DNA from: Dendrolimus kikuchii
Lineage: Eukaryota; Arthropoda; Insecta; Lepidoptera; Lasiocampidae
Length of the DNA: 64,000 nt
Assembly (NCBI GenBank): GCA_019925095.2
Contig: CM034408.1
Coordinates: forward strand, 1,860,001-1,924,000
Direction: 5' to 3'
The position numbers and the translations under genes were made by a program. Numbering within the stretch: position 1 is the stretch's first letter; every line of letters begins with the position of its first letter. Positions 10,540-62,153 of this stretch are shown here, one piece after another. Under the pieces are notes generated by a model that was not told the origin of the DNA, did not search any database, and saw only the letters and a program-made list of their open reading frames with translations.

Positions 10540-10636
10540 ATGATGAGAGTGTTTCAGATCACCGTTTTGGTGGTTGTAGCCGTTTTGCCAACATGCTGTG
10601 CTCAAGAAGAGTCTTTCGCCAGTTCTTTACTTTCCG
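10540..10636 (+). CDS. mas: masquerade-like gene, exon 1 (start codon and signal peptide)
   Basis: Two consecutive ATGs open a frame of 32 codons plus one base, ending at a GTGAGC donor at 10637. The peptide has a short polar N-terminus (MMRVFQ), a hydrophobic core (ITVLVVVAVLP) and small residues before a likely signal-peptidase site (TCCA / QEES), so the product should enter the secretory pathway. The exon ends in phase 1, which matches the phase-1 acceptor at 56975; the join reads SSLLS-G-LLETL without a stop. Assignment to masquerade rests on exons 2, 4 and 5: this exon alone would only be called a signal-peptide exon. Either ATG could be used. No exon was seen between this one and exon 2, so intron 1 is taken as 46,338 bp. 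An unseen alternative exon is possible. Confidence 0.75.
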
Positions 10637-11324
10637 GTGAGCTTTCTCTGAAATTTTGTGTAAATTATGTATTTGTAACAACGTTGTTGTAAAGATGTCT
10701 ACTAGGTCGCATATATACACAAGTCTTAATTTTTAGAGTTCTCTAACAAGAATTGAATATAATTAAAACTAAATTTTAACGGTTTTAAGCGGGGCATTTT
10801 ATTGATGATCACGGCTACTGAAACGTCGGAATGATTTACAAATAACATTCACGTTTAAAACCGTTAAAACGTACTGTTAATCACATGTGCTTGTCGCGAA
10901 AACTTAAGAAAATACTAAAAACTGAATATAAGTTTGTCTGTCTTTCTATATCAAAGTAATTTTACTCCAATGCGGTATAGATATATATAAATTGGAAGTA
11001 TATAGTGTGACGGAATTGCGAACAACTGAAAAATGGGGTAGCCACCATACATGTAACTGTATGGTTGAAAACTAAAAATTAAATGAATTTAAACTTATAT
11101 CTAATCATAGATCACCTTTAATAAAGTCTTGGGCGTATGATATTATAGGGATCAACCAGATTGAGTCAATTTTGTTAGAAGACAACTGGGGTCGATTCTA
11201 CTATTTCGATATCTTGGGGTTGTAAAGATGTTGAAAGTACAATTCCATTGCGATAGTGTCAAAAATTCGTATTCTATTAAATCCACAATATCTTCTCGAA
11301 TTGGTCGCTGCAGAATGGTAGTAG
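10637..11324. other. start of mas intron 1, unclassified
   Basis: AT-rich. Unlike most of the intron no dispersed repeat is obvious, so proximal regulatory elements are possible. Confidence 0.3.
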
Positions 11325-11530
11325 AAAAAAATAAGATAACACTTTATTGCTCACCAAATGTACAATTACAAAAATGCACAATTACAATATTGTCATGGTA
11401 GGAACAATAGGCGGCCTTATCGCTTCAAGCAATCTCTTCCAGGCAACCTAACTTAAGGAATAGTTTAACCTAATCTGGCGATGCAGGTGGTGCAGATTAT
11501 TAAATAGAACTTAAACAGACGCACTTAAAC
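11325..11530 (-). mobile_element. LINE-K 3' end
   Basis: CACTTTATTGCTCACCAAA followed by GGCGGCCTTATCGCTTC and CAATCTCTTCCAGGCAACC; minus orientation, same family as 48471 and 57313. Confidence 0.6.
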
Positions 11531-11570
11531 TGAATATTTTATAAATTAAAGACAAGACATACTCAAATCT

Positions 11571-12205
11571 ATACTAATATTATGAAGCTGAAGAGTTTGT
11601 TTGTTTAAACGCGCTAATCTCAGGAACCGCTGGTCCGATTTGAAAAATTCTTTCAGTGTTGAATAGTACATTTATCGCGGAAGGCTATAGGCTATATTAT
11701 ATTTTTGAAAAAATTAGGGATCCTTGCTAAAAGTCCAATAATGTAACCCAAGGTGTAAAAAATGACCCGAAAAAATCCTTTCACGGCATGCGCTGCGAAA
11801 ACTCTTGATTATAGAACAAAACACTGTACTACCACTTTGCAGAACATATAATTGTCTACAAAAAATATTGCGTAACCATATATGTCTAACTATTGTAGTT
11901 ATCTCACAATAAGTGTTTTTTTTTTATTTTGTCGCTCCAAAAGCTCTTTATTTTGTACCTTGGTATTAATCCTTATCAAAATAAACTACTCCATATTCAA
12001 GAAGAATTCAATACCTTTCTAGAACTTTTTGAATTATTCAATTCGGACATTTCATTCAAAAGATATCGCGATATTTAAAATGTAAGTATTAGCGTTGCAG
12101 TCAAATATACTAATATATTGTTTGATTGAACGCGCTAATCTCATGAACTACCGGTCTGATTTGCAAAATTCTTTCAGTGTTGGATAGCCCATTTATCGAC
12201 GAAGG
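11571..12205 (+). mobile_element. HelA long variant with second 5' end, 3'-truncated
   Basis: Starts TCTATACTAATATTATGAAGC, carries about 500 bp of AT-rich filler, then restarts ATATACTAATATATTG and a second HelA body that stops at 12205 where another repeat begins. Same plan as 25246-26021. Confidence 0.7.
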
Positions 12206-12332
12206 CATTACGTTTGGATTTGTTGTGTTCGGTTATATTTGTACCTGTGTTATACGTGTTTGTATAGTTCTAATAAACTCTATAATAATGCCAACGGCAT
12301 TTTAATCCGAGTCACGCAACTCGTAACAATAT
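12206..12332 (+). repeat. dispersed repeat, inverted copy at 45905-46035
   Basis: ATTACGTTTGGATTTGTTGTG through CTCTATAATAATGCC to CAACTCGTAACAAT. It cuts HelA at its left end and could be a LINE or LTR terminus. Confidence 0.6.
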
Positions 12333-12712
12333 GTTGCTGGGGAGTTTGTTACGTCGCTTCTTCTCCTTTAACAGTGACTAAAATTGCTTTGGAAGCGGTG
12401 GTAGACTAATGACGACCAATAAGTAATCTGTAACATCCATTTTGAAAGAAATACATTATTTTCAACTACTCAACATAGATTAAGTAAGACGGGATCAGTG
12501 TTTACAATTTTATAAGCTCGTAACTCTCGAAGTATTGGTATGATTATGAGGCCTGTTCCTATATGTTAACAACTGTTCACTTGCGTTACTATCGGTTAAA
12601 ATTTGACATAAGCTCTATACAAATAATGTCAAAATTCAACCGACGTCGATGGTAAGGCAAACGATTAAATAGTACGATATAGGAACCGGCCAGTGGACGA
12701 AATACTCTAAAA
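12333..12712. other. unclassified, no gene
   Basis: Begins with a LINE-J-like GTTGCTGGGGAGTTTG...CGCTTCTTCTCCTTTAACAG piece; the rest is AT-rich. Confidence 0.35.
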
Positions 12713-12850
12713 CAGAGATTTTCAAAGTGGTCGATATCGACCCCCTGGGGTCGAAATCGCTTTCCCAAGGGTCGACATATACGAAAACTGATTTTGGGGA
12801 TCGATGAGGTCTAAAAATCGACCCATATTAAATAATACAAGTTCTTATTC
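12713..12850 (+). mobile_element. hAT-like transposon terminus
   Basis: Starts CAGAGATTTTCAAAGTGGTCGA and continues ATCGACCCCCTGGGGTCG. The CAGNG-TTTTCAA start and repeated GGTCGA motifs are typical of hAT termini. The other end was not found. Confidence 0.45.
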
Positions 12851-12897
12851 GAAATTTTCATGATACTGCATAAGTTGTATTACGTGTAGTAACTTAC

Positions 12898-13066
12898 ATA
12901 CATACATACATACATAACTTCACGCCAGTTCCCTTGTGGGGTAGGTACGAACAACAGAGTGCCATTTAGGCTTATTCTTACACACCTCACTTGCCTCTTT
13001 GACATTCATAACTCTTGTCATGCAAGCTCGTCTGTTCTTAAGGCTCCTGACATCACCTTCTGCTAG
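12898..13066 (-). mobile_element. RTL LINE fragment
   Basis: (CATA)n tail at 12898-12914 then the last about 55 codons of the family (RACMTRVMNVKEASEVCKN). Confidence 0.8.
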
Positions 13067-13174
13067 TAGTTCTGTGTAATAACTTGTTATAAGAATGACT
13101 AATATTTTAGTAGGAAGTATCATTCTTGTAAAATAATTACCTACTTAAGTATTATTAAGTAATTTGTATTAATT

Positions 13175-13503
13175 TTATCCGCGCAGGAACGGAGAAAGAA
13201 TACAATTTCCTGCGGCCTGGCGGCCTGTCGTAAGAGGCGACTAAACAACCCACAGCCAGGTGGTAGGGTATTTGCTCGACTGGATGGTGACCACCCCTGG
13301 TCTAGAGTATGCCGCCATAACAACCTTGTGTTGTGTTCCGGCATTAGTGACCAGGTTCCAGTCTCCTTTAAGAGAGCAGCAGCGCGTTTGTAGCACCTTT
13401 GGTGTTGTAAATGTCCATAGGCGATGGTAACCGCTTTCCATCAAGTGGGCCGTCTGCCTATCTGCTGAACTCCTGCAATAAAAATAAAAATAATAATAAA
13501 AAT
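13175..13503 (+). mobile_element. SINE-A, full length, interrupted A tail
   Basis: TTATCCGCGCAGGAACGG to CTCCTGCAATAAAAATAAAAATAA; the tail has become (AATA)n. Confidence 0.88.
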
Positions 13504-13505
13504 AA

Positions 13506-13740
13506 CTAGCTGCGCCCGCGACGTCGTCCGCGTGGAATTTGCTTTCAAAACCTCCCGATTTTGAAACATTCTTTATTGGTGTTCCGCTTCTATTGGTCTT
13601 AGCGTGATGATATAAAACCTATATATAGCCTTCCTCCATAAATGGGCTATCTAACATTGAAAGAATTTTTCAAATTGTAGTTCCTGAGATTAGCGCGTTC
13701 AAGCAAACAAACAAACTCTTCAGCTTTATATATTAGTGTA
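13506..13740 (-). mobile_element. HelA Helitron-like element
   Basis: CTAG at 13506-13509, GGACGACGTCGCGGGC before it on minus, and 5' end TACACTAATATATAAAGC. Directly abuts the SINE-A tail. Confidence 0.75.
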
Positions 13741-13859
13741 GATTACGGTAAAAGCTTATTGACGATCTCATCATACACAGTCGGTGCGGCCATCTAAAAT
13801 CTTTCGTCGTATAAAAAGCCTTTTCGCGCAAACGTGGCTGTACTAATTTTTTAAATTTG

Positions 13860-14106
13860 TTTTTTTTTTTTTTTTTTTTTATTGCAGGAGTTCAGCAGAC
13901 AGGCAGACGGCCCACTTAGTGGAAAGCGGTTACCATCGCCTATGGATATTTGCAACACCAAAGGTGCTACAAATGCGCTGCTGCTCTCTTAAAGGAGACT
14001 GGAACCTGGTCACTAATGCCGGAACACAATACAAGATTGTTATGGCGGCATACTCTAGACCACGGTGGTCGCCATCCAGCCGAGCAAATACTCTACCACC
14101 TGGCTG
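13860..14106 (-). mobile_element. SINE-A, 5'-truncated, 21-nt A tail
   Basis: T run at 13860-13880; ends within the CCACCTGGCTG segment, so the 5' third is missing. Confidence 0.85.
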
Positions 14107-14297
14107 AATTATATTATTATTTATTGAAAGTTGTTGAACGTATTCAGGGATTTTGTTGAGATCATTATACTTTGACATAATTGGTATTTACGGTTACACA
14201 TTTCAACGTGTGAAAAGGGAAAACATAATATATAAAGATAAAGCTTAATACTATAATGAAAGAAAATACAACTAAATTATAAATTAAACTAAATAAA

Positions 14298-14870
14298 TCT
14301 TCTATATATTAATTAATACGTGAAGCAAAAACTTTGTACCCCTTTTTACGAAAATTGCGCGGACGGAGGAGTATGAAATTTCGCACACTTATAGTTTATA
14401 TAGAGAAGAAGCGACGACTGCTAAATTTTTTTTAAATTATGCATAAAAATACATTAAATCAATTAAAAAAAAAACATTACACAACACGCATATATACTCT
14501 TGTGTTTATTGTTAAAGACAAATTAACAGTGTAGACGGCCTCTGTGGTTGAGCGGGCTAAGCCTTTGCCGGCCTACCTCACTTCAACGCAGAGGCTCCGG
14601 GTTCGATTCCTGGTATAGTAAATTTCGGAAACGTATTTTCTCCCTTATTTACTATGGTCTGGGTGTCTGGGATCGGCCCCAGAGTAGTCCGTTATATATT
14701 ACCCATAACACAAGCGTAACTTGCTTAATTTGGGGATATACAATGTGTGTGTTTGTCTGCCGATTATTTATTTATTTATTTAGTGTAGCCTTGGCGAAAT
14801 CTGTGATTATAGAAGTATAGTCATTGACATTAATTATTATGATCGAATTTGGACAACGGGCGACCACTAG
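14298..14870 (+). mobile_element. HelD Helitron-like element interrupted by SINE-B
   Basis: Starts TCTATATATTAATTAATACG and ends GGGCGACCACTAG followed by T. The last part matches the hairpin GGTCGAATTTCGACC of other copies with two changes. It is split at 14534-14781 by a SINE. Confidence 0.75.
14534..14781 (+). mobile_element. SINE-B (tRNA-derived), full length with TSD
   Basis: A box-like TGGTTGAGCGGGC (14546) and B box GGTTCGATTCC (14601) are spaced as in tRNA genes, followed by an unrelated body and an (ATTT)n tail. AGTGTA at 14528-14533 and 14782-14787 is the TSD, matching the uninterrupted HelD sequence. Confidence 0.85.
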
Positions 14871-14912
14871 TTAAACTAAATACTTAAAAATAAACTAAAT
14901 AAATATAAAGTA

Positions 14913-15036
14913 TGTAACAAATCGCTGCCAGATGGAAGCGTGCCCAGAAGGCTGGCTGCATTGCCACGTTGTATGGCAATGCTGATTCGTTGCACGAAAT
15001 ACGAACCGGCCTTCTGATCACGGGTGGTATTAAAGA
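14913..15036 (-). mobile_element. QRIS-family 3' end
   Basis: On minus: [20 protein letters not shown], then [17 protein letters not shown]. Begins 40 bp after the HelD end. Confidence 0.72.
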
Positions 15037-15363: not shown

Positions 15364-15608
15364 GACGACCTCCGTAGTTGAGTGGGCTATGCCTTTGCCA
15401 GAGTACCTCACTGCAACGCAGAGGTACCGGGTTCGATTCCTGGTATAGTAAATTTCGGAAACGTATTTTCTCCGTTATTTACTATGGTCTCGGTGTCTGG
15501 GATCGGCCCCCGATTAGGCCGTTGTATATTACCCATAACACAAGGGTAACTTGCTTGATTTGAGGATATGCAGTATGTGTGTTTGTCTGCCGATTATTAT
15601 TATTATTA
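15364..15608 (+). mobile_element. SINE-B, full length, (ATT)n tail
   Basis: GACGACCTCCGTAGTTGAGTGGGC with B box GGTTCGATTCC; the tail is ATTATTATTATTATT, unlike the ATTT tail of the first copy. Confidence 0.85.
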
Positions 15609-16217: not shown

Positions 16218-16983
16218 CTCGGAATTTTGGTTAGAAATCTTGGACGAACTCTGGAATTTTGCTTATTTCCTGCGGCTTGGCGACCTGTCGTAAGAGGCGA
16301 CAAAACAAACCACAGCCAGGTAGGGTATTTGCCTTGATGGCTACCACCCCTGGTCTATAGAGTAACACATAACCTTGAGTTGTGTTCCGAATTCTTGGTC
16401 AGGTTACAGTCTGCGTTTGGAGAGCGGCAGCACATTGGTAGCGCTTTTAGTGTTACAAATGTCCATAGGCAACGGTAAATGCTTCCCATCAGGTGAGCCG
16501 TCTGCCTTATCACTAATAAGTCTACTTTCTTCGAAATTACTAGTCTGGAGTACAAGTTATAAGTCTTGGACGAGATCTGGAATTTTAGTTATAAATCTTG
16601 GAGGAGATCTGGAATTTTAGTTATAAATCTTAGAGGAGATCTGGAATTTTAATTATAAATCTTGGAGGAGATCTGGAATTTTAGTTATAAATCTTGGAGG
16701 AGATCTGGAATTTTAGTTATAAATCCTGGTGGAGATCTGGAATTTTAGTTATAAATCCTGGTGGAGATCTGGAATTTTAATTATAAATCTTGGAGGAGAT
16801 CTGGAATTTTAGTTATAAATCCTGGTGGAGATCTGGAATTTTAATTATAAATCTTGGAGGAGATCTGGAATTTTAGTTATAAATCCTGGTGGAGATCTGG
16901 AATTTTAATTATAAATCTTGGAGGAGATCTGGAATTTTAGTTATAAATCTTGGAGGAGATCTGGAGTTTTAGTTATAAATCTT
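16218..16983 (+). repeat. 32-bp minisatellite, about 15 copies, split by SINE-A
   Basis: Unit about GGAATTTTAGTTATAAATC followed by TTGGAGGAGATCT. Thirteen contiguous units span 16565-16983; a diverged unit at 16218-16262 lies on the far side of a SINE-A. CTTGGAGG and CCTGGTGG unit types alternate in the middle of the array. Confidence 0.93.
16263..16510 (+). mobile_element. SINE-A, 5'-truncated, inside the minisatellite
   Basis: Starts at the TTTCCTGCGG segment and lacks a clear A tail; more diverged than most copies (TTGGTAGCGCTTTTAGTGTT). Confidence 0.75.
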
Positions 16984-23282: not shown

Positions 23283-23463
23283 TTTTTTTTAATGCTTCAC
23301 TTCATTTAACGCTGTTCACGTAGGGTCCGTCTGTGCTTTTACTCCTTCGTCTGTGTTCATTGCTTTGATATGACTTTGCTACATTGAAGCATGCCTTCAG
23401 TCATTAAGTAAAACCAGTTGCTGAGTAACAACATTCAATCACCGGTGTGGCGGCACCGAGTGT
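23283..23463. other. no gene seen
   Basis: Unclassified sequence leading into the tandem repeat. Confidence 0.25.
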
Positions 23464-24645
23464 ACAGGACTTTCTCCCTGCCATGCGCCCCCCACTTCAC
23501 CTCACCTAGCAACTAAGCATTACGTGCTCTGTTAAGTAATCATTTCTTTCTCTCTTTTCAATGAATACATTTAACACGGTTTCTGGTTTTTGTGGATATT
23601 GGATAACTGGCGGTCTCGGAAGGCGTTGTAATGCCCTGAAAATATAAAAATATAGAACCCGATTCCAGCGCCACCTACCGGGTCTAATTGTGAACGTAAA
23701 CCACCCCGGGACCCACTCAAACGCACATAAAATCTCAGCAAAATCGTAGAACCCGATTCCAGCGCCAAGTATTTTGTTTACATTGATGGGTTACATTAGT
23801 GAAGTCTTAGTAGGGATTCCTAATTTTATATAGCCTATATTAATCAGGGATAATGTTACAGGACTTTCTCCCTGCCATGCGCCCCCCACTTCACCTCACC
23901 TAGCAACTAAGCATTACGTGCTCTGTTAAGTAATTATTTCTTTCTCTCTTTTCAATGAATACATTTTTAACACGGTTTCTTGTTTTTGGGATATTGGATA
24001 ACTGGCTTTCTCGGAAGGCGTTGTAATGCCCTGAAAATATAAATATATAGAACCCGATTCCAGCGCCACCTACCGGATCTAATTGTGAACATGAACCACC
24101 TCGGGACCCACTCAAACGTACATAAAATCTCAGCAAAATCGTAGAACCCGATTCCAGGGCCAAGTATTTTGTTTACATTGATGGGTTAAATTAGTGAAGT
24201 CTTAGTAGGGATTCCTAATTTTATATAGCTTATATTAATTAGGGATAATGTTACAGGACTTTCTCCCTTCCATGCGCCCCCCACTTCACCTCACCTAGCA
24301 ACTAAGCATTACGTGCTCTGTTAAGTAATCATTTCTTTCTCTCTTTTCAATGAATATATTTTTAACACGGTTTCTGGTTTTTGGGATATTGGATAACTGG
24401 CGGTCTCGGAAGGCGTTGTAATGCCCTGAAAATATAAAAATATAGAACCCGATTCCAGCGCCACCTACCGGGTCTAATTGTGAACATGAACCACCTCGGG
24501 ACCCACTCAAACGCACATAAAATCTCAGCAAAATCGTAGAACCCGATTCCAGCGCCAAGTATTTTGTTTTCATTGATGGGTTACATTATTGAAGTTTTAG
24601 TAGGGATTCCTAATTTTATAGTCTATATTAATCAGGGATAATGTA
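23464..24645 (+). repeat. tandem triplication, unit about 394 bp
   Basis: Units 23464-23857, 23858-24252 and 24253-24645, each starting ACAGGACTTTCTCCCTGCC. Each contains a HelB-related segment (CGATTCCAGCGCCACCTACC) and a direct duplication of GTAGAACCCGATTCCAG. Units differ by a few substitutions and small indels. Confidence 0.95.
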
Positions 24646-26263: not shown

Positions 26264-26385
26264 TATATATGTCAGTCATTGTCAGTGTTAATTAATATTT
26301 TAATGGCAAATTTTAGATTAGTAAGGCATATAATACAATATTTATTTATTTACGTCTTGATTATAATAAAATTACTACTAAATGA

Positions 26386-26721
26386 GAGAAGAGAGTGTCG
26401 GGGTGAAGGTAAGGAAAGGAATGCTCCGGTGGTTCGGGCATGTGGAAAGAATGCATGATGAAAGAATGACTAAACAGATATACAATGCAAAAGTGGATGG
26501 ATGCAGAAGTCGTGGAAGGCCACGACACACCTTCCGTGATCAAATTGATCGTGTACTAGCAGAAGGTGATGTCAGGAGCCTTAAGAACAGACGAGCGTGC
26601 ATGACAAGAGTTATGAATGTCAAAGAAGCATGTGAGGTGTGTAAGAATAAGCCTAAATGGCGCTCTGTTGTTCGTGCCTACCCTGCAAGGGAACTGGCGT
26701 GAAGTTATGTATGTATGTATG
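26386..26721 (+). mobile_element. RTL LINE fragment with 13-bp TSD
   Basis: TACTACTAAATGA at 26373-26385 and 26722-26734. The coding tail (VGVKVRKGMLRWFGHVERM to ARELA) is open. Confidence 0.92.
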
Positions 26722-28660: not shown

Positions 28661-28925
28661 AAGTATCTTAATTCTCACTTTCCTTCCTATTTGCCTTGCT
28701 ATTACTTAAAACAATTTTCTTATTCATATTAAGTTAGAGTAAGTTTGAACGCTTCTTTAAGGTTCTTAACTTACTCTGAATGAATAAGAAAGTTATTTGA
28801 TTAATATTGTTTAAGTAATGTGAGTGAAACAAGCTGGTGAAAAGATGTATCGCGACACGTTCGCTGAAAGTGAATTAATGTGTTAATACAGCGAACCGTT
28901 GTATTGTCGAATGTATGATTATAAT
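28661..28925. other. no gene seen
   Basis: Unclassified host-like sequence; 28890-28937 is the pre-insertion context of the next LINE. Confidence 0.25.
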
Positions 28926-28937
28926 TGTATAAATATG

Positions 28938-29707
28938 ATGACTGTCAGGCGAGAGGCTTACATTTGAATGCGAAGAAAACAAAGGTTATGGTGTTTGAAA
29001 GCGAAGAAACCAGAACGAATGCAAGGATAATGGTCGATGATGTTATGCTGGAGCAAGTGAATGAGTTTGTATATCTTGGATGTGCTTTTAGCAGGGATGG
29101 AAGGTACACCGCTGATATAGAAAGAAGAGTGAATTTGGGGAATAGTTTAAATGGAGCGTTAGGTAAACTTCTAGGCGCTAAGAACCTCAGCCAGAAGGCC
29201 CAGCTCGCCGTACACAACGCGGTGCTGGTACCTACGCTCACGTATGGAAGCGAGAGTTGGGTATGGAAGAGAGAGCATGAAAGTAGAGTAAACGCGGTCG
29301 AGATGCGAGCACTGCGCAAAATCTGCGGAGTGACGCTCGCGGACCGCGTTCGTAATACCGAAGTAAGAAAGAGAGTTGGTCTGAAAGAGAGTGTCGGGGT
29401 GAAGGTAAGGAAAGGAATGCTCCGGTGGTTCGGGCATGTGGAAAGAATGCATGATGAAAGAATGACTAAACAGATATACAATGCAAAAGTGGATGGATGC
29501 AGAAGTCGTGGAAGGCCACGACACACCTTCCATGATCAAATTGATCGTGTACTAGCAGAAGGTGATGTCAGGAGCCTTAAGAACAGACGAGCTTGCATGA
29601 CAAGAGTTATGAATGTCAAAGAGGCAAGTGAGGTGTGTAAGAATAAGCCTAAATGGCACTCTGTTGTTCGTGCCTACCCCGCAAGGGAACTGGCGTGAAG
29701 TTATGTA
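28938..29707 (+). mobile_element. RTL LINE fragment, longest copy, 12-bp TSD, open frame
   Basis: TGTATAAATATG at 28926-28937 and 29708-29719. Coding sequence is open to the stop at 29696-29698: the end of a reverse-transcriptase domain (LHLNAKKTKVMVFE; FVYLGCAFSRDG), a central ALGKLLGAKNLSQ and LVPTLTYGSESWVW, then LRWFGHVERM and SRGRPRHTF, ending ARELA. There is no ATG at the left border; the frame simply enters from the truncation point. The YADD catalytic centre is missing, so the copy is dead. The short simple-sequence tail and C-terminal motifs suggest an RTE-like element; CR1-like origin is not excluded. Confidence 0.88.
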
Positions 29708-29763
29708 TGTATAAATATGTCGTGTAGCGTTGGAAATTCAGTTTTAGCGATTGTATACTTGAA

Positions 29764-30080
29764 AGAGAGTGTCGGGGTGGAGGTAAGAAAAGGAATGCTC
29801 CGGTGGTTCGGGCATGTGGAAAGAATGACTAAACAGATATACAATGCAAAAGTGGATGGATGCAGAAGTCGTGGAAGGCCACGACACACTTTCCATGATC
29901 AAACTGATCGTGTACTAGCAGAAGGTGATGTCAGGAGCCTTAAGAACAGACGCGCGTGCATGACGAGAGCTATGAATGTCAAAGAAGCAAGTGAGGTGTG
30001 TAAGAATAAGCCTGAATGGGGCTCTGTTGTTCGCGCCTACCCCGCAAGGCAACTGGCGTGAAGTTATGTATGTATGTATG
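29764..30080 (+). mobile_element. second RTL insertion, 44 bp downstream of the first duplication
   Basis: TSD core CTTGAA at 29758-29763 and 30081-30086 (11 bp, GTATACTTGAA/GTATGCTTGAA, with one mismatch). It has its own truncation point (KESVGVEV) and lacks the MHDER segment present in other copies. Confidence 0.85.
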
Positions 30081-30174
30081 CTTGAATTTCAGCTGTGCCA
30101 TTTCAAAACTTAGCAAGCGTTCGTCGAAATCAATTACGACACATCGCGACCGGTGTGAGTGTGGGATTCGCCAG

Positions 30175-30538: not shown

Positions 30539-33220
30539 TTACGGCGGCCGAAGGTCACTATCCGACCTCCGGCGTCGGCGCGTCCTCCTTTGGCGGGAGC
30601 GGAGCAGGGAATTACGCTCACGCTCCCGTTCCGCCTCCTCCTTCGCGAACATGACTTGCTCGCAGAAGGAGGAGACGGCGTCCCATCCGGTGGAGCTCCC
30701 GACCATGGTGCGTACCACGGCCGGGAGCGAGGTGTCGAATCCGGTATGGGCGACGAGCTCCCGGCGCTGCTCCATCCAAGAGGGACACTCCTGGAGTGTG
30801 TGCAGCGCCGTGTCCTCGTCGCCCGTGTCACAATGATGGCACCCTGACGTGGCCTCGCGGCCGAGGCGACACAGGTACCTTCCGAAGCAACCATGCCCCG
30901 TCAGGACCTGCGTCAGCCTGAACGTCAGGGTGCCGTGACGTCGTCCTAGCCATTCGTGCAGGACGGGCCTCACCGCCTCAATGGTGGCGGGGCCCGCACT
31001 GGGGCGTCGTAGGCGATCTTCCCAGACCCCCACGGCTACCTGGCGGAGCTCCGACCTACACGCCTCGATCTCGCGAGGCGCGGGTCTGGTGCCCCTGGCC
31101 AGGGCCTCTTTGCGCCACACATACAGTGACGCCAGGACCCTGGCTTCCAGGTCCCATGGGGGGGATCCGGCGAGTAGCGAGGCCACTTCGAAGGACACCG
31201 TACGGTATCCTCTTATTGCTCTGACGGCCAATATGCGTTGCGCTTGACGCAGTAGCGCCGCGTTTTTGGCCGTCAGGCGGTTCGACCAGACTGGGGCCCC
31301 GTAAAGGGCCATCGAACGTACGATGCCTTCGAAGAGTTTCCGGCACGTGGCGTTGGGCCCCCCGACGTTGGGGAGCAGGCGCGAGAGCGCACCGGCTGCC
31401 CCCTTGAGTCTGGGGAGCAGCTGCCGAAAGTGTGCCGAAAAATCCCATCGGCTATCGAGGACCAATCCCAGGTATTTCATGGTTCCACCGATGCCGATGC
31501 GGATGCCTCCTACTATGATGCAACTGTCCGGAGGTGGACGATTACGAGGACCGTGAAACATCACGGCCTCGGTCTTCTGTAACGCCACCTCCAGACCGAG
31601 ACGCCGGATCCTGCCTACTATTGTCGACACCCCAGCCGTGCCTAGAAGGCACGCCTGCCGATGGGTCCTCCCGCGCGCGGCGATCAGCGTGTCGTCTGCG
31701 TAACATACGACGCTGACGCCCGGGAGGACCCGACACCTCAATGTCCAGTCGTATGCGATGTTCCACAGGAGGGGACCTAGAACCGACCCCTGTGGAACAC
31801 CGCACACCATGGCTCGCCGATTCCATCCCTCGTGGACCGGGTAGATGACGGCTCTGCTGTTTAGGTATGCCCCGACTATACGGCGGAGGTAGGTCGGCAC
31901 CCCGAAATATCGGAGTGCCTCCATGATGCACGCCCAGGGCAAGGAATTGAATGCGTTGGCGATGTCTAAGGACACCGCCAACAGGACCTCGCCCTGGGAA
32001 ACTGCTTCCTCCGCCAGGCTTCTCAAGCGCATGATCGCGTCAATCGTAGAGCGCCCCGTGCGGAAACCGAACTGGTTGTCCGCCAGGTCCGGCCCCGTCG
32101 TCGATAAATGCTGGACGAGGCGGTCGACGATGATACGCTCAAAGAGCTTACCGACCTCGTCCAGCAGCACAATGGGCCGGTAGGCGGACGGTGAGTCCGC
32201 GGGGCGCCCCTCCTTCCGCAGCAGGACCAGCTTTCCTGTCTTCCAACGTTGTGGAAACTGGCCCTGCTCTAAGCATGCGCCGAAAAGCCTCATCAGTCGG
32301 GGCTCCAGGGCGTCGTAGGACAGAACCCACGCACGCCCTGGTATGCCGTCAAGGCCGGGGGCAGCGTTCTTGGCCTTTAGCCGTAGCATAGCCACCCCCA
32401 GCTCTACCCGGTCCACGGTGGGCACAGGGTCTCTATCCGCGCTGGGCTCCGCCTCTGGCGGTGCCATAGCAGGAGGCATGTGCTCAGCCCGTGAAGGGAA
32501 CAGAGCGCCAACAACGTCCTGAACAACGTCCCTGGGGAGAGACTCGGTCAGCGGGGGCGCCCAAGCCCGGAGCTTATTTCGAGCCATTTTGAAAGGGCGT
32601 CCCCAAGGGTCTTGATTTAAGCTATCCAAGAGCTCCCCCCAGGCAACGTTTTTTGCGTTGCGGATTTCGATCCGCAATGTCCTTCTGGCGCTTCTGTACC
32701 CCTCGTACAGCTGAGCCTCCACGGTCGCTGCGTCCGCTGCACGACGACGCCGTCTTCTGTGGCGGGTGTACTGGCGGCGCGCGCTATTGCACGCGCGCCT
32801 TAGCCCCTCCAGTACGGGGTTCCACCAGTACACCTTTCGGAGGGGCTGGAATCGGCCCCTCCTCGGCATCGCCGCGTCACAGACGCCAGTGACGAGCGAC
32901 CGTAGGTTTTCTGCCTCCTGCTCTACATTTACATCGGGAGGGTTCACCTCAGGCCCTGATGCCCAGGTGGCGACGATCAGGGCCTCCCTGAACACCTCCC
33001 GATTCAACTTTTGTAATGCCCAGCGCGGACAGTCACCTACCGGGGACTCTCGGGACGGCGGGTCCGGATTTCGGGCGGAGACGCTGAACCGTATATAACG
33101 GTGATCGGAGAGCGTCTCCACCCCCGTGACGACCCTCCAGTCCCGCACACGGCGCGCCAGTTCAGGGCTGGCAAACGTGACGTCTACTATTGAGCCGCCC
33201 TGCTGGCGCAAAACTTTCAT
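30539..33220 (-). CDS. R1-clade non-LTR retrotransposon ORF2, 5'-truncated (893 codons, reverse transcriptase intact)
   Basis: An open frame with no stop. Residues about 8-45 are the end of an APE-type endonuclease (SDHRYI at 38-43); the rest of that domain is missing. Reverse transcriptase motifs follow in order: FGFRTGRST (384-392), SLDIANAFNSL (417-427), GVPQGSVLGPLLWN (474-487), the catalytic YADD (507-510) and KYLG (582-585). A C-terminal zinc knuckle is C794-x2-C797-x9-H807-x4-C812, and an Arg-rich tail ends the protein. This order is that of the R1/TRAS/SART group, whose full ORF2 is over 1,000 residues. The ATG at 33220 appears to come from the Helitron-like target, not the element, because ATGAAAGTTT has its counterpart in the other copy of that repeat near 3040. 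GC content is far above the surroundings. The copy looks recent but cannot nick DNA itself without the endonuclease. Confidence 0.88.
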   Translation of the reverse strand: MKVLRQQGGSIVDVTFASPELARRVRDWRVVTGVETLSDHRYIRFSVSARNPDPPSRESPVGDCPRWALQKLNREVFREALIVATWASGPEVNPPDVNVEQEAENLRSLVTGVCDAAMPRRGRFQPLRKVYWWNPVLEGLRRACNSARRQYTRHRRRRRRAADAATVEAQLYEGYRSARRTLRIEIRNAKNVAWGELLDSLNQDPWGRPFKMARNKLRAWAPPLTESLPRDVVQDVVGALFPSRAEHMPPAMAPPEAEPSADRDPVPTVDRVELGVAMLRLKAKNAAPGLDGIPGRAWVLSYDALEPRLMRLFGACLEQGQFPQRWKTGKLVLLRKEGRPADSPSAYRPIVLLDEVGKLFERIIVDRLVQHLSTTGPDLADNQFGFRTGRSTIDAIMRLRSLAEEAVSQGEVLLAVSLDIANAFNSLPWACIMEALRYFGVPTYLRRIVGAYLNSRAVIYPVHEGWNRRAMVCGVPQGSVLGPLLWNIAYDWTLRCRVLPGVSVVCYADDTLIAARGRTHRQACLLGTAGVSTIVGRIRRLGLEVALQKTEAVMFHGPRNRPPPDSCIIVGGIRIGIGGTMKYLGLVLDSRWDFSAHFRQLLPRLKGAAGALSRLLPNVGGPNATCRKLFEGIVRSMALYGAPVWSNRLTAKNAALLRQAQRILAVRAIRGYRTVSFEVASLLAGSPPWDLEARVLASLYVWRKEALARGTRPAPREIEACRSELRQVAVGVWEDRLRRPSAGPATIEAVRPVLHEWLGRRHGTLTFRLTQVLTGHGCFGRYLCRLGREATSGCHHCDTGDEDTALHTLQECPSWMEQRRELVAHTGFDTSLPAVVRTMVGSSTGWDAVSSFCEQVMFAKEEAERERERNSLLRSRQRRTRRRRRSDSDLRPP

Positions 33221-33672
33221 CCCCTATTTCAACCCGTTCTAGTTTTATTTATCAATCCCCGCCTATCTGTCTGTAAACTACATAAACGACCAAATTGACC
33301 AAAATAAACAAAATGACGAAAATGGCAAACCACAAATAAAAAACCTATCCTAGTTTCCGGGATAAACTTTACATAAATCTATCCCAGTATCCGGGATGAA
33401 AAGTATCCCTTGGCCACCCTCGGTATTCAAATTACATATGTACTGAGTATCAGCCAAATCGGTCTAATAGTCTTTCCATAAAAGGATAACAAACAGAGAA
33501 ACAAATATACTTTTATCCCGGAAACTATCCCATTTTCCGGGATAAAAAGTATCCTATGTTCATTCTCGGCATCGAAAATACATATATATACTGAGTTTCA
33601 GCCAAATCGGTCCAGTAGTTTTTACGTGAAAACGGAACAGACAGACAGACAGAGTTACTTTCGAATTTCTAG
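33205..33672 (-). mobile_element. HelC Helitron-like sequence, cut by the R1 element
   Basis: Inverse of the 2655-3062 sequence with the ATCCCGG...CCGGGAT pairs present twice (33360-33400 and 33515-33545). Ends AGACAGACAGACAGAGTTACTTTCG. Confidence 0.6.
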
Positions 33673-41080: not shown

Positions 41081-42543
41081 TGAAAATTACGCATTTTTTG
41101 TATTCAAAGACTTTACATATGGTTTTCTATGGTACAATAACGACACTAAAATCATCGGTAAGCCATCATTTAGGCAAAAAATTAATAAACAATACAATTA
41201 ATTACGAAATACGTGCATTATATCGCTAGAAATAATGTTCAATTTTAGCGTGACGACTTACCTACTAATTATAATAAAAACACAATTATTTTAATTTTGG
41301 GATTAGTCTGCAAATGTAACATATATGACATGATCAAAATAATTAATAATTGTAAAATCAAATATTACGGCATTGCTAAAAAATCACGACATTTTGTAAT
41401 TTGTAAGTAAAACCTCAGATTAATAATATTGAGAGACAAAGTTTTTACCTCACTTTGCTAAATGTCAGGCAAAGGAACTAAATCCGTACAGCATGAATAT
41501 CAATATTATTCAATCAAACTGAACATCTTTGAATGACATAAAAATACGGAATTTTAGATTTTTCACATTATTGTGATTAAGATCATTATTATATTTTTGT
41601 AGTTTGTATATATAATTACCGACAACATGCAATACTAATGTTAGACAAACAATATATAGGTGTGAGGGGTGTTCGAAGGTTATAGCAAGGACAGTGGGTT
41701 AGGTTAGGTTATCTTTAGACCAAAGCCCACGAGCCGAGCGAGCGAAGCGAGCGTGCCGCGGCAGCGGCCGGCGAGTGGCAGAACCGACTTTAACTTTTAT
41801 TAAAATTATCAACGAATAAATGGAAACAGTCGGTTCTGCCACTCGCGGGCGCTACCGCGGCAGACACGCTTCGCTCGCTCGGGTCGGGGGCTTTGGTCTA
41901 AAGATAACCTAACCTAACCCACTGTCCTTGTCACTGGTTACACCTTCGACCACCCCTTACACCTATACTTTGTTTTGCTTACATTGGTATTGCATGTAGT
42001 CGGTATTTATATATACAAACTAGAAAAATATATTAATTATCTTAGTTACAATAATGTGAAAAATCTAAAATTCCATACTTTCATGTCATCCAATGATCTT
42101 CAGATTGATTGAAAAATATTGATATTCATGCTGTATGGATTTAGTGTCTTTGCCTAACAAGTAGCAAAGTGAAGTAAAAACTTTGTCTCTTAATATTATT
42201 AATCTGAGGTTTCACCTACCAATTACAAAATATGGTGGTTTTTTAGCAATGCCGTAATAGTTGATTTTATAATGATTAATTATTTTGGTCATGTCATATA
42301 TGTTACATTTGCAGATTAATCCCGAAATTAAATAAGTGATTGTGTTTTTATCACAACTAGGTGAGTCGTGACGCTAAAATTGAACATTATTTTTATTTAT
42401 ATGATGCAGGTTTTTAACGTAATTAATTGTATTCTTTTTTAATTTTTTACCTAAATGACAGGTTTCCGATAATTTTAGTGTCCTTATTACACCATAGCAA
42501 ACCATATTTATAGTCTTTAAATACAAAAAAACGCATAATTGTG
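41081..42543. repeat. giant inverted repeat, arms about 710 bp, spacer 38 bp
   Basis: 41081-41789 is complementary to 41828-42543, with scattered mismatches and small indels. The outer about 640 bp of each arm are AT-rich; the inner about 70 bp are GC-rich (AGCGAGCGAAGCGAGCG; GAGTGGCAGAACCGACT). No ORF of note. A foldback transposon is the simplest explanation. The right border abuts a dispersed repeat also present at 48240-48430. Confidence 0.93.
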
Positions 42544-44339: not shown

Positions 44340-45300
44340 CCATAATTTCTCCCAAGAAATTTTTGTCCCCAAAAATCCCCCAACACAAAATAATTCCTAA
44401 AAATGGGGCAAACACGTGCCACCGGTGCCCAGGCACAGGGCGTATTCGATTCCAACACATACATACCTACATGCCAGTATCATCAAAAACGACGTTTTAA
44501 TTAGACAAAACATCGCGCTCATTTTTTTGGCAGCGCACGAGCGTATTTGTTTTCTAGTTCTTTAAAAAAATAGATTTTTCTTCCAAAATATTAGATAATT
44601 GGTCCACCGACACCAAGGTTGTGCGTTATTTTATCACCCTGAATGAAATAAAGTAGGCATATACATAGGATTGTGCATATGCCAATGCATATAAATCTAT
44701 TTTTATAGCGTTATTGCATATTTTGGTACTTTTTCATTGACAGTGCTTATTTCGGTAGTTATACGTGTTAGGCGTCTTGTATTATGCCGACGACACGACG
44801 AAAAAATGATTGAACAGAGTAACGCCCTTCCGAGTTCACTATCGCAAAAGGTTTGTGGCAAATTAAATGCAGTTTTGTATAAAAACCCCGGTCTTGAAAG
44901 AATAAAGAAAATTGACGCATTTATCAACGGCACCGGAGAAACTCTACCTGAACAAGTCTCTGCAAAAAATGGCGCCAAATTTCAAGTTCTGTCAGTTGAC
45001 GTCGAAAGGTCATTTTCAGCATATAAATTAATATTAAGTGACAAGCGTCACAAGTTTGCTGCAGAAAACCTGGAAAAATATGTTATTGTTTACTGCCACA
45101 AGAATTATAATAAGTAAATTATTATAATAATAATTTATAACTAATATTAAGATATGTTTAATATATAAATATAATGTGAAAATAAACTTAAATTCTAATT
45201 AATCTAATAATAAATGGTTTATTGATTGTGCATATTTCGCCCCTTTTTTAGTGCATATTTGCATGCATATTTTGCCATTTTGATAGTGCATATAATCCGA
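44340..45300 (+). pseudogene. hAT-like transposase relic and surrounding element
   Basis: The frame ending at 45117 reads VCGKLNAVLYKNPGLERI, GAKFQVLSVDVERSFSAYK, then LSDKRHKFAAENLEKYVIVY. The VERSFSAYK...L...ENLEKY pattern is that of the hAT dimerisation region; the catalytic part is absent. Left flank 44400-44670 (GTGCCACCGGTGCCCAGGC; ACACCAAGGTTGTGCG) recurs at 50850-51185. GTGCATATTT motifs occur on both sides. The hAT call is from the C-terminal motif only. Confidence 0.45.
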
Positions 45301-56974: not shown

Positions 56975-57124
56975 GTCTCCTGGAAACCCTGGACATGCAG
57001 GAGGAGGTCCCGGACTGCCCCGGTGCGTGCATGCATGCGGTCACTACGGTGATATGCAACGATGTGCTGGAAAACGTACAGTGTCCGAACCCATCTATGA
57101 GGTGCTGTGCCGATTCATTGCAAG
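56975..57124 (+). CDS. mas: masquerade-like gene, exon 2 (first Cys-knot clip-like module)
   Basis: The acceptor is TTTATATTTCCAG and the donor GTAAGA; phase is 1 in and 1 out, 150 nt. It encodes protein residues 33-82 (Gly33 and Gly83 are split codons). Cysteines at 47, 51, 60, 69, 76 and 77 give C-x3-C-x8-C-x8-C-x6-CC, the disulfide-knotted (clip-like) pattern repeated in insect Masquerade proteins, with a CPGAC opening. Family knowledge: Masquerade is a secreted serine-protease homologue with several such modules followed by a catalytically dead trypsin-like domain, needed in Drosophila for muscle attachment and axon guidance; related proteins act in arthropod immunity. Whether this species uses it likewise is inference. 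The donor is followed directly by a minisatellite. Confidence 0.82.
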
Positions 57125-57131
57125 GTAAGAA

Positions 57132-57863
57132 ATGATCTTAGGAGACTATATGGTTCTATGACCACAAATGATCTTAGGAGACTATGTATGACATAGAACC
57201 ACAAATGATCTTAGGAGACTATGTATGACATAGAACCACAAATGATCTTAGGAGACTATATGACAGACCACAAATGATCTTAGGAGACTATATGACATAG
57301 AACTACAAATGAATGAATGAATGAATGAAAACTCTTTATTGTTCACCATAATCTTAAATCTAGACAATTGATATGGATACATTTGCATTAGAACAATGGG
57401 CGGCCTTATCGTTTATAGCGATCTCTTCCAGGCAACCCGGTGTCTAAGGAGATTTCAAACGAAATTTCAATATAAGATTTTTGGTGGTGTATTACAAAAA
57501 AATAAAATAAGATATAAATAAAGTACTATCTACTTATATATACAGATGTACATATATACATACAGATATACATATATAATTAGATATACGATGATATTAT
57601 AAATATATATACGAACAATAGATACATCCATTTAATGCAACAATTTTTATTTAATAGTCCAATAATGGTCAGTGACCATACGTTTAAATATAGTCATTGA
57701 TTTAGCTTGTCTGATTGGAAATGATCTTAGGAGACTATATGACATAGAACCACAAATGATCTTAGGAGACTATATGACATAGAACCACAAATGATCTTAG
57801 GAGACTATATGACATAGAACCACAAATGATCTTAGGAGACTATGTATGACATAGAACCACAAA
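57132..57863 (+). repeat. 35-37 bp minisatellite in mas intron 2, split by LINE-K
   Basis: Unit AAATGATCTTAGGAGACTAT followed by (GT)ATGACATAGAACCAC. Five units at 57132-57306 and four at 57719-57863; one isolated unit near 58117-58155. The first unit begins 7 bp after the exon 2 border. Confidence 0.95.
57313..57718 (-). mobile_element. LINE-K 3' end inside the minisatellite
   Basis: AAATGA at 57307-57312 and 57719-57724. (AATG)n at the left is the inverted tail, then CTCTTTATTGTTCACC and GGCGGCCTTATCG. Confidence 0.82.
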
Positions 57864-58258
57864 TTTTGGCCCAATTGGTTCATTAGAAGTCAGAGGTCCC
57901 ATAGTACCAATATAGTAAACTTATTTAACTTCTTTAATGAACTTGTGTTAAATTTACTCTTGAAATTGGTATTTAAACCAAAAAATAAACAATTCTTACA
58001 AAACTTTGAAGTTGATGCCAAGTAAAACAATAAAAATCAACTTAAATTTACATTGCAATTATGTTTTTTTTTAAATATAGTAATTTTTGATCTTTTATGT
58101 GGCAGCTTAAGGAATGTTATCTTAGGAGACTATGTATGACATGGGAACACACATGCATAATGATTTAGCCGTATCTGCTTCAGACACAGTGAAATTTCTT
58201 AGCGTACAAGGGCCTTTAGCAAATGAACACTTGGCAAAATATTATTATAGGAACCGGC
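57864..58258. other. rest of mas intron 2, no gene
   Basis: AT-rich plus the isolated minisatellite unit. Confidence 0.4.
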
Positions 58259-58558
58259 CTTTTTTTTTATTGCAGGAGTTCAGCAGAAAGGCAGACGGCC
58301 CACTTGATGTAAAGCGGTTACCATCGCCTATGGACATTTGTAACACCAAAGGTGCTAGAAATGCGCTGGAGACTGGAACTTGGTCACTAATGCCGGAACA
58401 CAACACAAGGTTGTTATGGCGGCATACTCTAGACAAGGGGTGGTCGCCATCCAGTCGAGCAAATACCCTACCACCTGGCTGTGGGTTGTTTTGTCGCCTT
58501 TTACGACAGGCCGCCAGGCCGCAGGAAATTGTATTCTTTCTCCGTTCCTGCACGGATG
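58259..58558 (-). mobile_element. SINE-A in mas intron 2
   Basis: Ends 41 bp before the exon 3 acceptor. A short internal deletion removes TGCTGCTCTCTTAAG. Confidence 0.87.
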
Positions 58559-58599
58559 AAAACGGCCTTAATAACCGCATGCTTTTTTTTCAATTTCAG

Positions 58600-58728
58600 G
58601 CAACGAAACGTTACCAACGACACGTCGACCATTCACGACGCGGTACACAACTCCAGACCCTGACGACGAAGAGGACGACGAGGAGACCACAACCAGGCTG
58701 CCATCCTCTGACAAATACAAAGATAGTG
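58600..58728 (+). CDS. mas: masquerade-like gene, exon 3 (Thr-rich acidic linker)
   Basis: The acceptor is TTTTTTTTCAATTTCAG and the donor GTAATT; phase 1 in and 1 out, 129 nt. It encodes residues 83-125 plus one base of codon 126. The segment has no cysteine. It begins NETLPTTRRPFTTRY, passes through a run of Asp and Glu (DPDDEEDDEE), then TTTRLPSS. A low-complexity Thr/Pro linker between knotted modules, likely O-glycosylated, is what the family has; the acidic block is a local feature. It is the least conserved kind of exon in this gene and is supported mainly by phase, splice sites and position between two clip-like exons. Confidence 0.68.
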
Positions 58729-59129
58729 GTAATTATCAGGTACACCTTTTTCTTACAGTGCCACACCAGTAAACGAGGTTGCTTGATTGATTCACAACAC
58801 TCGACATCAGACCATTGAACTTGCTATTAAAATCATTCTAAAAACGTAACTTTGTAATCCGTAAGGTGCTCTTACACGAGCGACTTAAATTGCTCAATCG
58901 CAGACAAGTCTCGTTAACTATGACGTCACGGCTACATCGAGCAATTTCGGACGATGGCAATATGTAGCAAGCTGTTGCTGAGATACGGCCATACAATACC
59001 GTGCAATGTGGAGCAACTTAAAAAATTAGGCACCCCTCCGCCGCCGCCGCCGGCCTATTCCTCTTGCGAAAATGAGACGTAGTTATATGTACAAACGAGA
59101 TAGAAATAAAATTACCTAAAAATTTCCAA
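58729..59129. other. mas intron 3, left part, unclassified
   Basis: Locally GC-rich ((CCG)n at 59035-59052); possibly low-copy. Confidence 0.3.
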
Positions 59130-59290
59130 ACCGATTGGATATTCGGCAATTCATGTAAAAAAAGTAGCCTACGTTACTCCTTATAGCATCAGCTATATGG
59201 CAGTGAAAGTCTCGTCAAAATCGGTCCAGCCGTTTCAGAGATTAGCCGAAACATTCGGACAGACAGACATTTTTTTTAATATATAAGTAC
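59130..59290 (+). mobile_element. HelG-type Helitron fragment
   Basis: GTAGCCTACGTTACTCC, AAAATCGGTCCAGCCGTTTC and GAGATTAGCCGAAAC, a widespread lepidopteran motif series. Confidence 0.55.
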
Positions 59291-59296
59291 CGTATA

Positions 59297-59465
59297 TATG
59301 TACTTTCATATGCATTTATATTTACTGCTAGCACGTGGTTATTTTAATAATATGCATATTTAGTCAGAAAACTGCTTAAGTGGTGCTTTTCGACTAGGAT
59401 TTGAACATGGGTCATTTGAGTTTGATGCGCATGCGCTAAGCTAGTAGTTAGCTATCGCAGCTTAC
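59297..59465 (-). mobile_element. SINE-C, degenerate
   Basis: CTAGCACGTGGTTATTTTAA and GACTAGGATTTGAACATGGG (decayed B box), ends AGTTAGCTATCGCAG. Confidence 0.55.
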
Positions 59466-59504
59466 GGATGCACCAGGGTTTCGCAGAGCGGCAGTGTCAT
59501 ATAC

Positions 59505-59580
59505 CTGTGGCCCCGGCAGAAAGGGAAAGGACGGAATACCTAGGGGTTTTAGTGGCCCCGACCGTGACGTGGCAATAGCA
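59505..59580 (+). mobile_element. R1 3' UTR fragment
   Basis: The complement contains GCTATTGCCACGTCACGG and CCACTAAAACCCC, as at 30205-30280. Confidence 0.5.
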
Positions 59581-59648
59581 TTTCAAACCAAATCAAATTA
59601 AATCATTTTTATTGCGAACTAAGTGTTACATTGGTCTTATCTTATATC

Positions 59649-60228
59649 TTATACTAATATATAAAGCTGAAGAGTTTGTTTGTTTGAACGCGCTAATCTC
59701 AGGAACTACTGATCTGATTTGAAAACTATTGATTATAGAACAAAACAATGTACTACCACTTTGCAGAACATATAATTGTCTACAAAAAATATCGCGTAAC
59801 CATATGTCTAACTATTGTAGTTATCTCACAATAGGTGTATTCTTTTATTTTTTTAAATAATTAAAATGCCGTCGCTTCAAAAACTCTTTATTTTGTACCT
59901 TGGTATTTGTTAATCCTTATCAAAATAAATTACTCCATATTCAAGACAAATTCAATACCTTTCTAGAACTTTTTGAATTATTCAATTCGGACGTTTCATT
60001 CAAAAGATATCGCGATATTTAAAATGTAAGTATTAGTGTTGTAGCCAAATATACTAATAATCTCAGGAACTACTGGTCTGATTTGGAAAATTCTTTCAGT
60101 ATTAGATAGCCCATTTATCCAGGAAGGCTATAGGCTATATATCATCACGCTAAGACCAATAGGAGCGGAGCACGAATGAAGAATGTTTCAAAATCGGGGG
60201 GTTTTGAAAACAAATTCCACGAGGACGA
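59649..60228 (+). mobile_element. HelA long variant, internally rearranged
   Basis: Third copy of the two-5'-end arrangement. The first body jumps from GATCTGATTTGAAAA to the filler, and the second 5' end has lost about 25 bp. Confidence 0.72.
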
Positions 60229-60568
60229 TGACTTATAACTTAGTTGGCCTTAATAGCATCGCAATATTAATGTTAATGAACCTATATCTGTAAAATGTAA
60301 TATTTATTTTAGTGCCTTATACATATTTTATTTTATTTAAAACAACACAATATCTTCTTAGTTTTTACCTCTCATTCAAATATTCTTGGACACTATAATA
60401 GGATTTTTGACCAACCACTCGAATAATTTTTGTTTAAACATATTAAAATTCTTTTCTTGCATTATATTACACGGTAACTTACTATATAATCTTGGTGCCA
60501 TCCCAAACACGCTTTTATCTTATAATGCAGTGCTATGTGGAGACATACACTCATTTCATGCTTCCTTT
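60229..60568. other. mas intron 3, AT-rich, no gene
   Basis: 60385-60540 resembles decayed LINE coding sequence (SNNFCLNILKFFSCIILHGN) but no family is recognised. Confidence 0.3.
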
Positions 60569-60876
60569 TTATTCGTGCAGGAACGGAGAAAGAATATAAT
60601 TTCCAGCGGCCGGGCGGCCTGTCGTAAGAGGCGACAAAACAACCCACAGCTGGTAGGGCATTTGCCCGACTGGATGGCTACCACATCTGGTCTAAAGTAT
60701 GTCGCCATAACAACCTTGAGTTGTGTTCCGGCATTAGTGACCAGGTTCCAGTCTCCCTTAAGAGAGCAGCAGCGCATTTGTAGCAACTTTGGTGTTTCAA
60801 ATGTCCATAGGCGATGGTAACCGCTTTCCATCGAGTGGGCCGTCTGCCTGTCTGCTGATCTCCTGCAAAAAAAAAA
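60569..60876 (+). mobile_element. SINE-A in mas intron 3
   Basis: Nearly complete; tail begins directly after CTCCTGC. Ends 94 bp before exon 4. Confidence 0.88.
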
Positions 60877-60970
60877 CGTGGCGAATCACATCATTACCGT
60901 GTCTCCCCCGATTGCCCCTCGTTGAAAAAGCTTACGGATGAAGATTTAAAATTCTATCTTACACTTTCAG

Positions 60971-61164
60971 GTAACATAGCCTGTCCAGGGGTCTGTGTCG
61001 AGAGTCGCTTCAGCAGGTACTGCGAGGCGTATCTATCCACGATAAACCTTTGCGTACATGGGAGAGCCTGTTGCGTGTCCAGAGATGAGTTCGGGGAGAA
61101 GGGACACCCGGATCTAATAGTGCCGAATCAGAAGAAACATTCTACTAAGTCACCGACTACTGTT
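60971..61164 (+). CDS. mas: masquerade-like gene, exon 4 (second Cys-knot clip-like module)
   Basis: The acceptor is CTTACACTTTCAG and the donor GTAAGT; phase 1 in and 0 out, 194 nt, residues 126-190. Cysteines at 130, 134, 143, 153, 159 and 160 give C-x3-C-x8-C-x9-C-x5-CC. The block reads CPGVCVESR...YCEAYL...LC...ACCVSRDEFG and is the most recognisable part of the gene; the order CPGVC, then YCEAYL, then CCVS is characteristic of the Masquerade knotted repeats. A basic and Ser/Thr tail (NQKKHSTKSPTTV) leads into the next linker. An alternative would be another clip-domain protease homologue, but the repeated modules separated by Thr/Pro linkers fit Masquerade better. Confidence 0.87.
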
Positions 61165-61424
61165 GTAAGTTTACTCTTATAGCTAAACCCGCTTCACTGA
61201 TGCAAAATTTTCTAATATGAATAAATGTGAACCTCCTTGATGGAATTTTTATATATTTTTTTTCTATTGTATCGCAAGTTCCGCTTATATGGTACTTAAT
61301 TTTTAATTTTCGAACAATGTGTGCGATCTGCGTAGATGCATTTTTGGAGCAAATGTGTTGAAAAAGTCATTAAAGAACATCATGATTTTTTAAGATCACC
61401 CCAACACGAGCGCCCTACACTCTT
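61165..61424. other. mas intron 4, left part
   Basis: Unclassified. Confidence 0.3.
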
Positions 61425-61510
61425 AAGATGGCCCTGTTACCCATAAGCGAAACTTGCTTAGCTTGGGGATATACAATGTCTGTGTTTGTCTGCCAATTAA
61501 TTATTCATTA
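61425..61510 (+). mobile_element. SINE-B 3' fragment
   Basis: CCCTGTTACCCATAAGCG to TTTGTCTGCCAATTAATTATT. Confidence 0.7.
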
Positions 61511-61958
61511 GAAGAAGCGAAGAGAAGATAAGTTTTTAAACATTGAACATCAGTATTATCTAGATAGAATTTTATTAAGTGTCCATAGTCTTCCTGATAT
61601 GGTTGGCATGTCTTTGTTGGAACAAGACCCCGAAAAAATGTTTATTGAGATGATTGACTAATGTTATGGGAGCTGCATACGTCTAGTCATCGCAGCGGAC
61701 AACGAACTACTGCCACGCGCAACGCGAGAGCGCACATATTAATAGTTGCTCTATCTCGCTCGCACATCATCCGTCCCGCTCCCACATTGTGCTATATATT
61801 GTTCTAGCTGTACGACTTGTTAATATTTGTACTTAAGGTTACCGTTTCCAAAATAAATTAGTTCACTTCAGTTCACATCAGCACTCGACAGTGAGTACTA
61901 CTCTCTGCCATCTGAAGTATCATTTAACCTCTACCTCTCGCTGCTACAATGTTTTCAG
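61511..61958. other. mas intron 4, right part
   Basis: Ends in the exon 5 acceptor; 61690-61800 is GC-richer (CGCTCGCACATC) with no repeat recognised. Confidence 0.3.
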
Positions 61959-62153
61959 TTAACAACAACTCCCCCGCCTAAAGGGCGAAGGTGCAAGGGG
62001 GACTGCATGACGGGGTTCTTCTCCTTGCTCTGTGACAACGTGGACCGGCACGCGTACTGCCCTGAAGACGGTATCTGTTGCATCAACGACTACAAGAGCG
62101 AGACAACTACCAGGCGGCCCACCACCACCCCGAGGCCGAGGCCTACCACGCCT
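61959..62153 (+). CDS. mas: masquerade-like gene, exon 5 (third Cys-knot clip-like module), last exon seen
   Basis: The acceptor is ACAATGTTTTCAG and the donor GTAAGT; phase 0 in and 0 out, exactly 65 codons (residues 191-255). It starts with a LTTTPPPKGRR linker. Cysteines at 202, 206, 215, 224, 230 and 231 give C-x3-C-x8-C-x8-C-x5-CC, and it ends in a second Thr/Pro/Arg linker (TTTRRPTTTPRPRPTTP). GC content and codon use are clearly higher than in the surrounding repeats. The donor shows that the gene continues, but no further coding exon was recognised before 64000. The remaining modules and the protease-like domain are therefore expected to the right of the window. Confidence 0.85.

Follow-up and report, generated by a model that had tools for sequence, protein, structure and literature searches.

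Fly Masquerade is described in one account (PMC5718610) as needed in the embryo, where it promotes or stabilises cell-matrix interactions, and in the same source prophenoloxidase activation is said to require the beetle homologues, which may serve as cofactors. As to architecture, the honey bee masquerade homologue is reported with five clips (PMC1761132), and a table row lists Mas/cSPH79 as 'S-4/5 clip-PLD' and the corn borer OfucSPH9 as '5clip-PLD' (PMC10036332).

We analysed a window of 64,000 nucleotides from the moth Dendrolimus kikuchii (contig CM034408.1, positions 1,860,001 to 1,924,000), in which a first-pass annotation had read five exons of a masquerade-like gene. We put the probability at about 0.96 that this window contains the 5′ part of the D. 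kikuchii masquerade gene, beginning with a signal-peptide exon and running, beyond a first intron of 46 kb, through clip module 1, a linker, and clip modules 2 and 3, laid out as follows:

10540-10636, + strand: exon 1, with the start codon, a hydrophobic signal-peptide-like leader, the conserved N-terminus EESFASSLLS and a phase 1 donor; identical to the public D. kikuchii protein P0008
10637-56974, + strand: intron 1, 46,338 bp, repeat-rich
56975-57124, + strand: exon 2, clip module 1
58600-58728, + strand: exon 3, an acidic/Thr-rich linker of 129 bp with symmetric phase 1-1
60971-61164, + strand: exon 4, clip module 2
61959-62153, + strand: exon 5, clip module 3 and a Thr/Pro-rich linker

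Joined, these exons form an open frame of 765 nt (255 aa), with phases of 1/1/1/0/0 after exons 1-5; the coordinates and phases of the first pass hold on recheck, as does its separation of the first Cys-knot exon from exon 1 by 46,338 bp. Exons 2-5, previously placed within 5.2 kb, measure 5,179 bp from end to end, and the recomputed Cys spacings of exon 2 (3-8-8-6-0), exon 4 (3-8-9-5-0), and exon 5 (3-8-8-5-0) agree with the reading of one six-Cys module of near-equal spacing in each. All four acceptors are AG and all five donors GT; of the five GT-AG pairs that had been claimed, the four complete introns stand, but the fifth is an open donor at 62154, whose acceptor lies beyond the window. 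Exon 1 had been taken to hold the start and signal peptide only; the leader is there, but the exon also encodes about 10 conserved residues, and an in-frame TGA at 10522 lies 5′ of its start codon. No exon beyond exon 5 was found in the window by tblastn with residues 256-683 of P0008, the four matches (E 0.18 to 4.0) all falling over clip exons 2 and 4. Lepidopteran masquerade proteins have a linker of variable length after clip 1, and in the Scirpophaga model (P0001) clip 1 is joined almost straight to clip 2; exon 3, with its symmetric phases and no counterpart there, may therefore either be a cassette exon or have been missed in that model. Intron 2 carries two arrays of a 35-37-bp unit (57130-57312 and 57719-57864), the former starting at intron base 6 and adjoining the exon 2 donor.

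The joined exons equal, linkers included, residues 1-255 of P0008 (K1T71_012008, 683 aa), whose public name is only 'hypothetical protein', and this identity of 255/255 residues excludes chance as the origin of the join. Pfam recovers CLIP_SPH_mas (PF18398, 'clip-domain serine protease homolog masquerade') in three stretches of the join (E 4e-29) and, in P0008, in five stretches accompanied by Trypsin (E 3.3e-59); the window holds three of the five clip modules of P0008, and the trypsin-like domain lies outside it. P0008 possesses the TAAHC and DNDIALL motifs, lacks GDSGGP, and at its catalytic serine has GDGGGP (at 629), where an active protease has GDSGGP. Homologues were collected by one search with the join alone (7 proteins, 156-388 aa) and a second with the join padded with X to reach full-length relatives (102 proteins), giving 109 proteins in all, or 108 once P0008 is set aside. 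Of the 109, 98 contain GDGGGP and not one contains GDSGGP; the 11 proteins without GDGGGP comprise seven short proteins (156-388 aa), P0037 and P0059 with no motif of this type, P0109 with GDGGSP, and P0017, a model whose end diverges after the His and Asp motifs. A hand count finds masquerade or mas in the displayed names of 55 of the 102 homologues, the others being mostly unnamed or hypothetical and four being named as other proteases (P0038, P0068, P0070, and P0078). A search of solved structures with the join gave no match at E 10. The masquerade-like identity first proposed is borne out by the agreement of the CLIP_SPH_mas matches, the homologue search, the identity to P0008, and the domain order; the top matches of the joined exons in the homologue search are masquerade-family proteins, and not members of an unrelated Cys-rich family, the outcome that had been named as a possible refutation. 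Judged from its sequence, the gene is masquerade itself, a firmer assignment than 'masquerade-like'.

The Pectinophora (P0010) and Danaus (P0014) masquerade proteins share the leader, five clips (counted by eye), and a trypsin-like domain with GDGGGP, their identity to the join being 64% over 85% and 61% over 93%, respectively. A Drosophila masquerade (P0090, D. teissieri) shares an exon-1-like tail, SLAGSFLSG, followed by LLDT, as well as clips and GDGGGP, but differs in its length of 1,047 aa and its much longer linkers. The Helicoverpa zea masquerade-like isoform X1 (P0059) shares CLIP_SPH_mas, but with seven stretches and no trypsin match, and is probably a relative encoded by another gene. 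The leader of exon 1 has a hydrophobic core of 2.96 (Kyte-Doolittle, mean of 11) in its early residues, and with this signal-peptide-like leader the protein is predicted to be secreted. P0008 would be a secreted protein in which Thr/Pro-rich stalks bear five clip modules, each a disulphide knot, and in which the trypsin fold has glycine in place of its catalytic serine. Because of this glycine at the catalytic position, we infer that the moth masquerade is most likely non-enzymatic, an extracellular adhesion or cofactor protein like Drosophila Masquerade.

The critical step in the gene structure is the join across 10636/56975. The public D. kikuchii model uses exon 1 at 10540, and the conserved tail of this exon, SFASS(F/L)LSG, is encoded within 10540-10636. 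One fairly permissive pattern, which joins the tail encoded by exon 1 to the beginning of exon 2, is found in 80 of the 109 proteins (79/108 without P0008), among them proteins attributed by name to flies, beetles, bees, and mosquitoes. When leader peptides of other species were searched over the window by tblastn with a loose cut-off, the best place fell within 10540-10644 for Pectinophora (E 0.001), Danaus (E 3.2e-5), and Tribolium (E 0.094). Upstream of exon 1 we note one further feature:

10447, + strand: candidate transcription start, at the A of GCAGTG (Inr-like), with GGACG (DPE-like) following at +28

One of the four Inr-like sites in 10100-10560 has a DPE, as have six of the 165 in intron 1 (0.13 pairs per kb), and this is no more than suggestive of a start at 10447. 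Taken together, the P0008 model and the conservation of the leader/exon-2 pattern support the 46-kb join. Against this reading, P0008 is itself a product of annotation. The D. kikuchii gene set is described as built on RNA-seq, homology, and ab initio evidence, with RNA-seq support for 11,521 of 15,323 genes (PMC8589036).

At 46,338 bp, intron 1 is ~11.6 times the mean intron of 4,009 bp published for the final D. kikuchii gene set (PMC8589036). Comparing the window with itself (blastn, E 1e-8) yields a repeat cover of at least 47.6% for intron 1, 37.9% for the 10.5 kb upstream, 33.3% for 56975-62153, and 43.6% for the whole window; this measure takes in tandem arrays and a palindrome besides dispersed repeats, and is a lower bound since repeats that are single-copy in the window escape it. 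Three Markov-1 random sequences modelled on the window gave no such self-matches. The published genome-wide repeat content, obtained with RepeatMasker and other programs, is 63.44% (PMC8589036), and differs in method from our one-window figure of at least 47.6%. The more conspicuous elements within the intron are:

30539-33223, − strand: non-LTR retrotransposon-like ORF (endonuclease end and reverse transcriptase), RVT_1 E 1.1e-33
29089-30087, + strand: LINE 3′-end-like repeats, one seed found at 14 places in the window, 12 of them in intron 1
41085-42540, unstranded: imperfect palindrome (fold-back repeat) of 1.46 kb, 85% over 1,478 aligned columns

In the retrotransposon-like ORF Exo_endo_phos_2 scores E 2.1e-4, under the curated cut-off. 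The name LINE for 29089-30087 is our reading from a shared ORF ending, and ORF 28925-29698 has no Pfam match. An element of ~0.3 kb, which we read as SINE-like, recurs from one seed at 24 places, 17 of them in intron 1 and some of them short pieces only. Tandem arrays occur in intron 1 at 16555, 23463, and 53807, with that at 23463-24644 made up of a 395-bp unit repeated three times in head-to-tail order (95% matches). The palindrome has a GC-rich centre, and both of its arms carry GGTTAGGTTAGGTTA, a sequence like the insect telomere repeat, at 41697-41711 and at 41905-41919, against a mean of 0.00 in shuffled sequences. Its arm, used as a seed, has no other match in the window, and no direct repeats of at least 8 bases flank it between the edge stretches searched. 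ORF 44695-45117 shows a weak, sub-threshold likeness to the hAT dimerisation region (E 0.17). No Rfam family was found in the window at the gathering score, and no tRNA by a bacterial-code scan.

In line with the first-pass view of intron 1 as transposon-filled and perhaps expanded by that load, a large share of it is repeats, which fits growth by transposon load, though the upstream DNA is little poorer in window repeats (37.9% against 47.6%), so that the intron need not be specially rich in them. With repeats reported to make up 63.44% of the genome, an ordinary load may suffice for its size. Most simply, we infer, the intron owes its size to the build-up of repeats in a genome that is rich in them.

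The leader was also followed through 38 records with lepidopteran names, in which 23 show the leader pattern, two (P0031 and P0034) have a divergent leader as judged by eye, and 13, again sorted by eye and with some species contributing more than one record, lack the conserved leader. Eight of these 13 have another start attached at or beside the exon-2 start; P0032, a record marked partial, begins four residues before it; P0030 (Danaus isoform X3) and P0039 have a Met within clip 1 as their first residue; P0037 seems to be chimeric; and the last, P0059, is the relative that gave no trypsin match. The three Spodoptera exigua records disagree among themselves, one with the leader and two without, for which reason the losses look like missed far exons.

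Such records bear on the question of whether there is some other true first exon, or several promoters within intron 1, in which case the 46-kb join would represent one isoform or a prediction error. The Danaus isoform starting within clip 1, and the other leaders carried by the Scirpophaga (P0001) and Loxostege (P0021) models, would fit such a situation. When 521 possible leaders running from an ATG to a phase-1 donor 5′ of exon 2 were filtered on hydrophobicity and donor score, four candidates passed: exon 1 with either of its own two ATGs, 4090-4255, and 26303-26408, the donors of the last two (9.53 and 11.31) outscoring that of exon 1 (7.51). However, both end without anything like the SFASS(F/L)LSG tail, which lies at 10540-10636 and in neither of them, and we rejected them as first exons. 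The public model of the species begins at 10540, and the conflict among the Spodoptera exigua records points to annotation loss, leaving another first exon highly improbable. The missing leaders are best read as far exons lost in annotation, and some of the leaderless lepidopteran records may be true isoforms. It is also rather doubtful that masquerade intron 1 is long across Lepidoptera with a second promoter or conserved enhancers that yield isoforms starting inside clip 1, the loss of exon 1 from many gene models being their trace.

Preferring the join of exon 1 to exon 2, we have also to ask what holds or removes so long an intron. Long first introns often harbour regulatory DNA, and intron 1 might be kept long by essential enhancers, with the repeats incidental. 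In keeping with this, no nested protein-coding gene was seen that would account for the length: none of 32 intron ORFs (at least 75 aa and less than 40% covered by window repeats, a screen that a gene of short exons would escape) matches Pfam at the curated cut-off, the weak scores being those of ORF 21264 (DUF3164, 0.023; Acetyltransf_6, 0.029) and ORF 40005 (zf-C2H2, 0.016). Of the 136 such ORFs in the whole window, 88 were excluded because they lie in repeats or start in the reverse transcriptase region. We regard maintenance by enhancers as unlikely. Stepwise removal by recursive splicing at a ratchet point would draw on one AG/GTGAGT site, at 42361, which has a full donor match and at least 10/15 pyrimidines, the value of the weakest true acceptor of the masquerade exons here; 50 random sequences have a mean of 0.12 such sites, and the antisense strand has none. 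Yet no site on either strand reaches 11/15 pyrimidines, a looser donor gives 2 or 3 sites against 0.98 or 1.78 expected, and the acceptor at 42361 is TAG, where the four true acceptors are CAG, and sits inside a palindrome arm. Recursive splicing is accordingly very improbable, and intron 1 would most likely be spliced out as a single ordinary intron.

The masquerade exons described here belong to an ordinary, already annotated gene, and their reading from the raw sequence matches the public gene model exactly. They also serve as a reminder that tiny signal-peptide exons lying tens of kilobases off are easily dropped from gene models.
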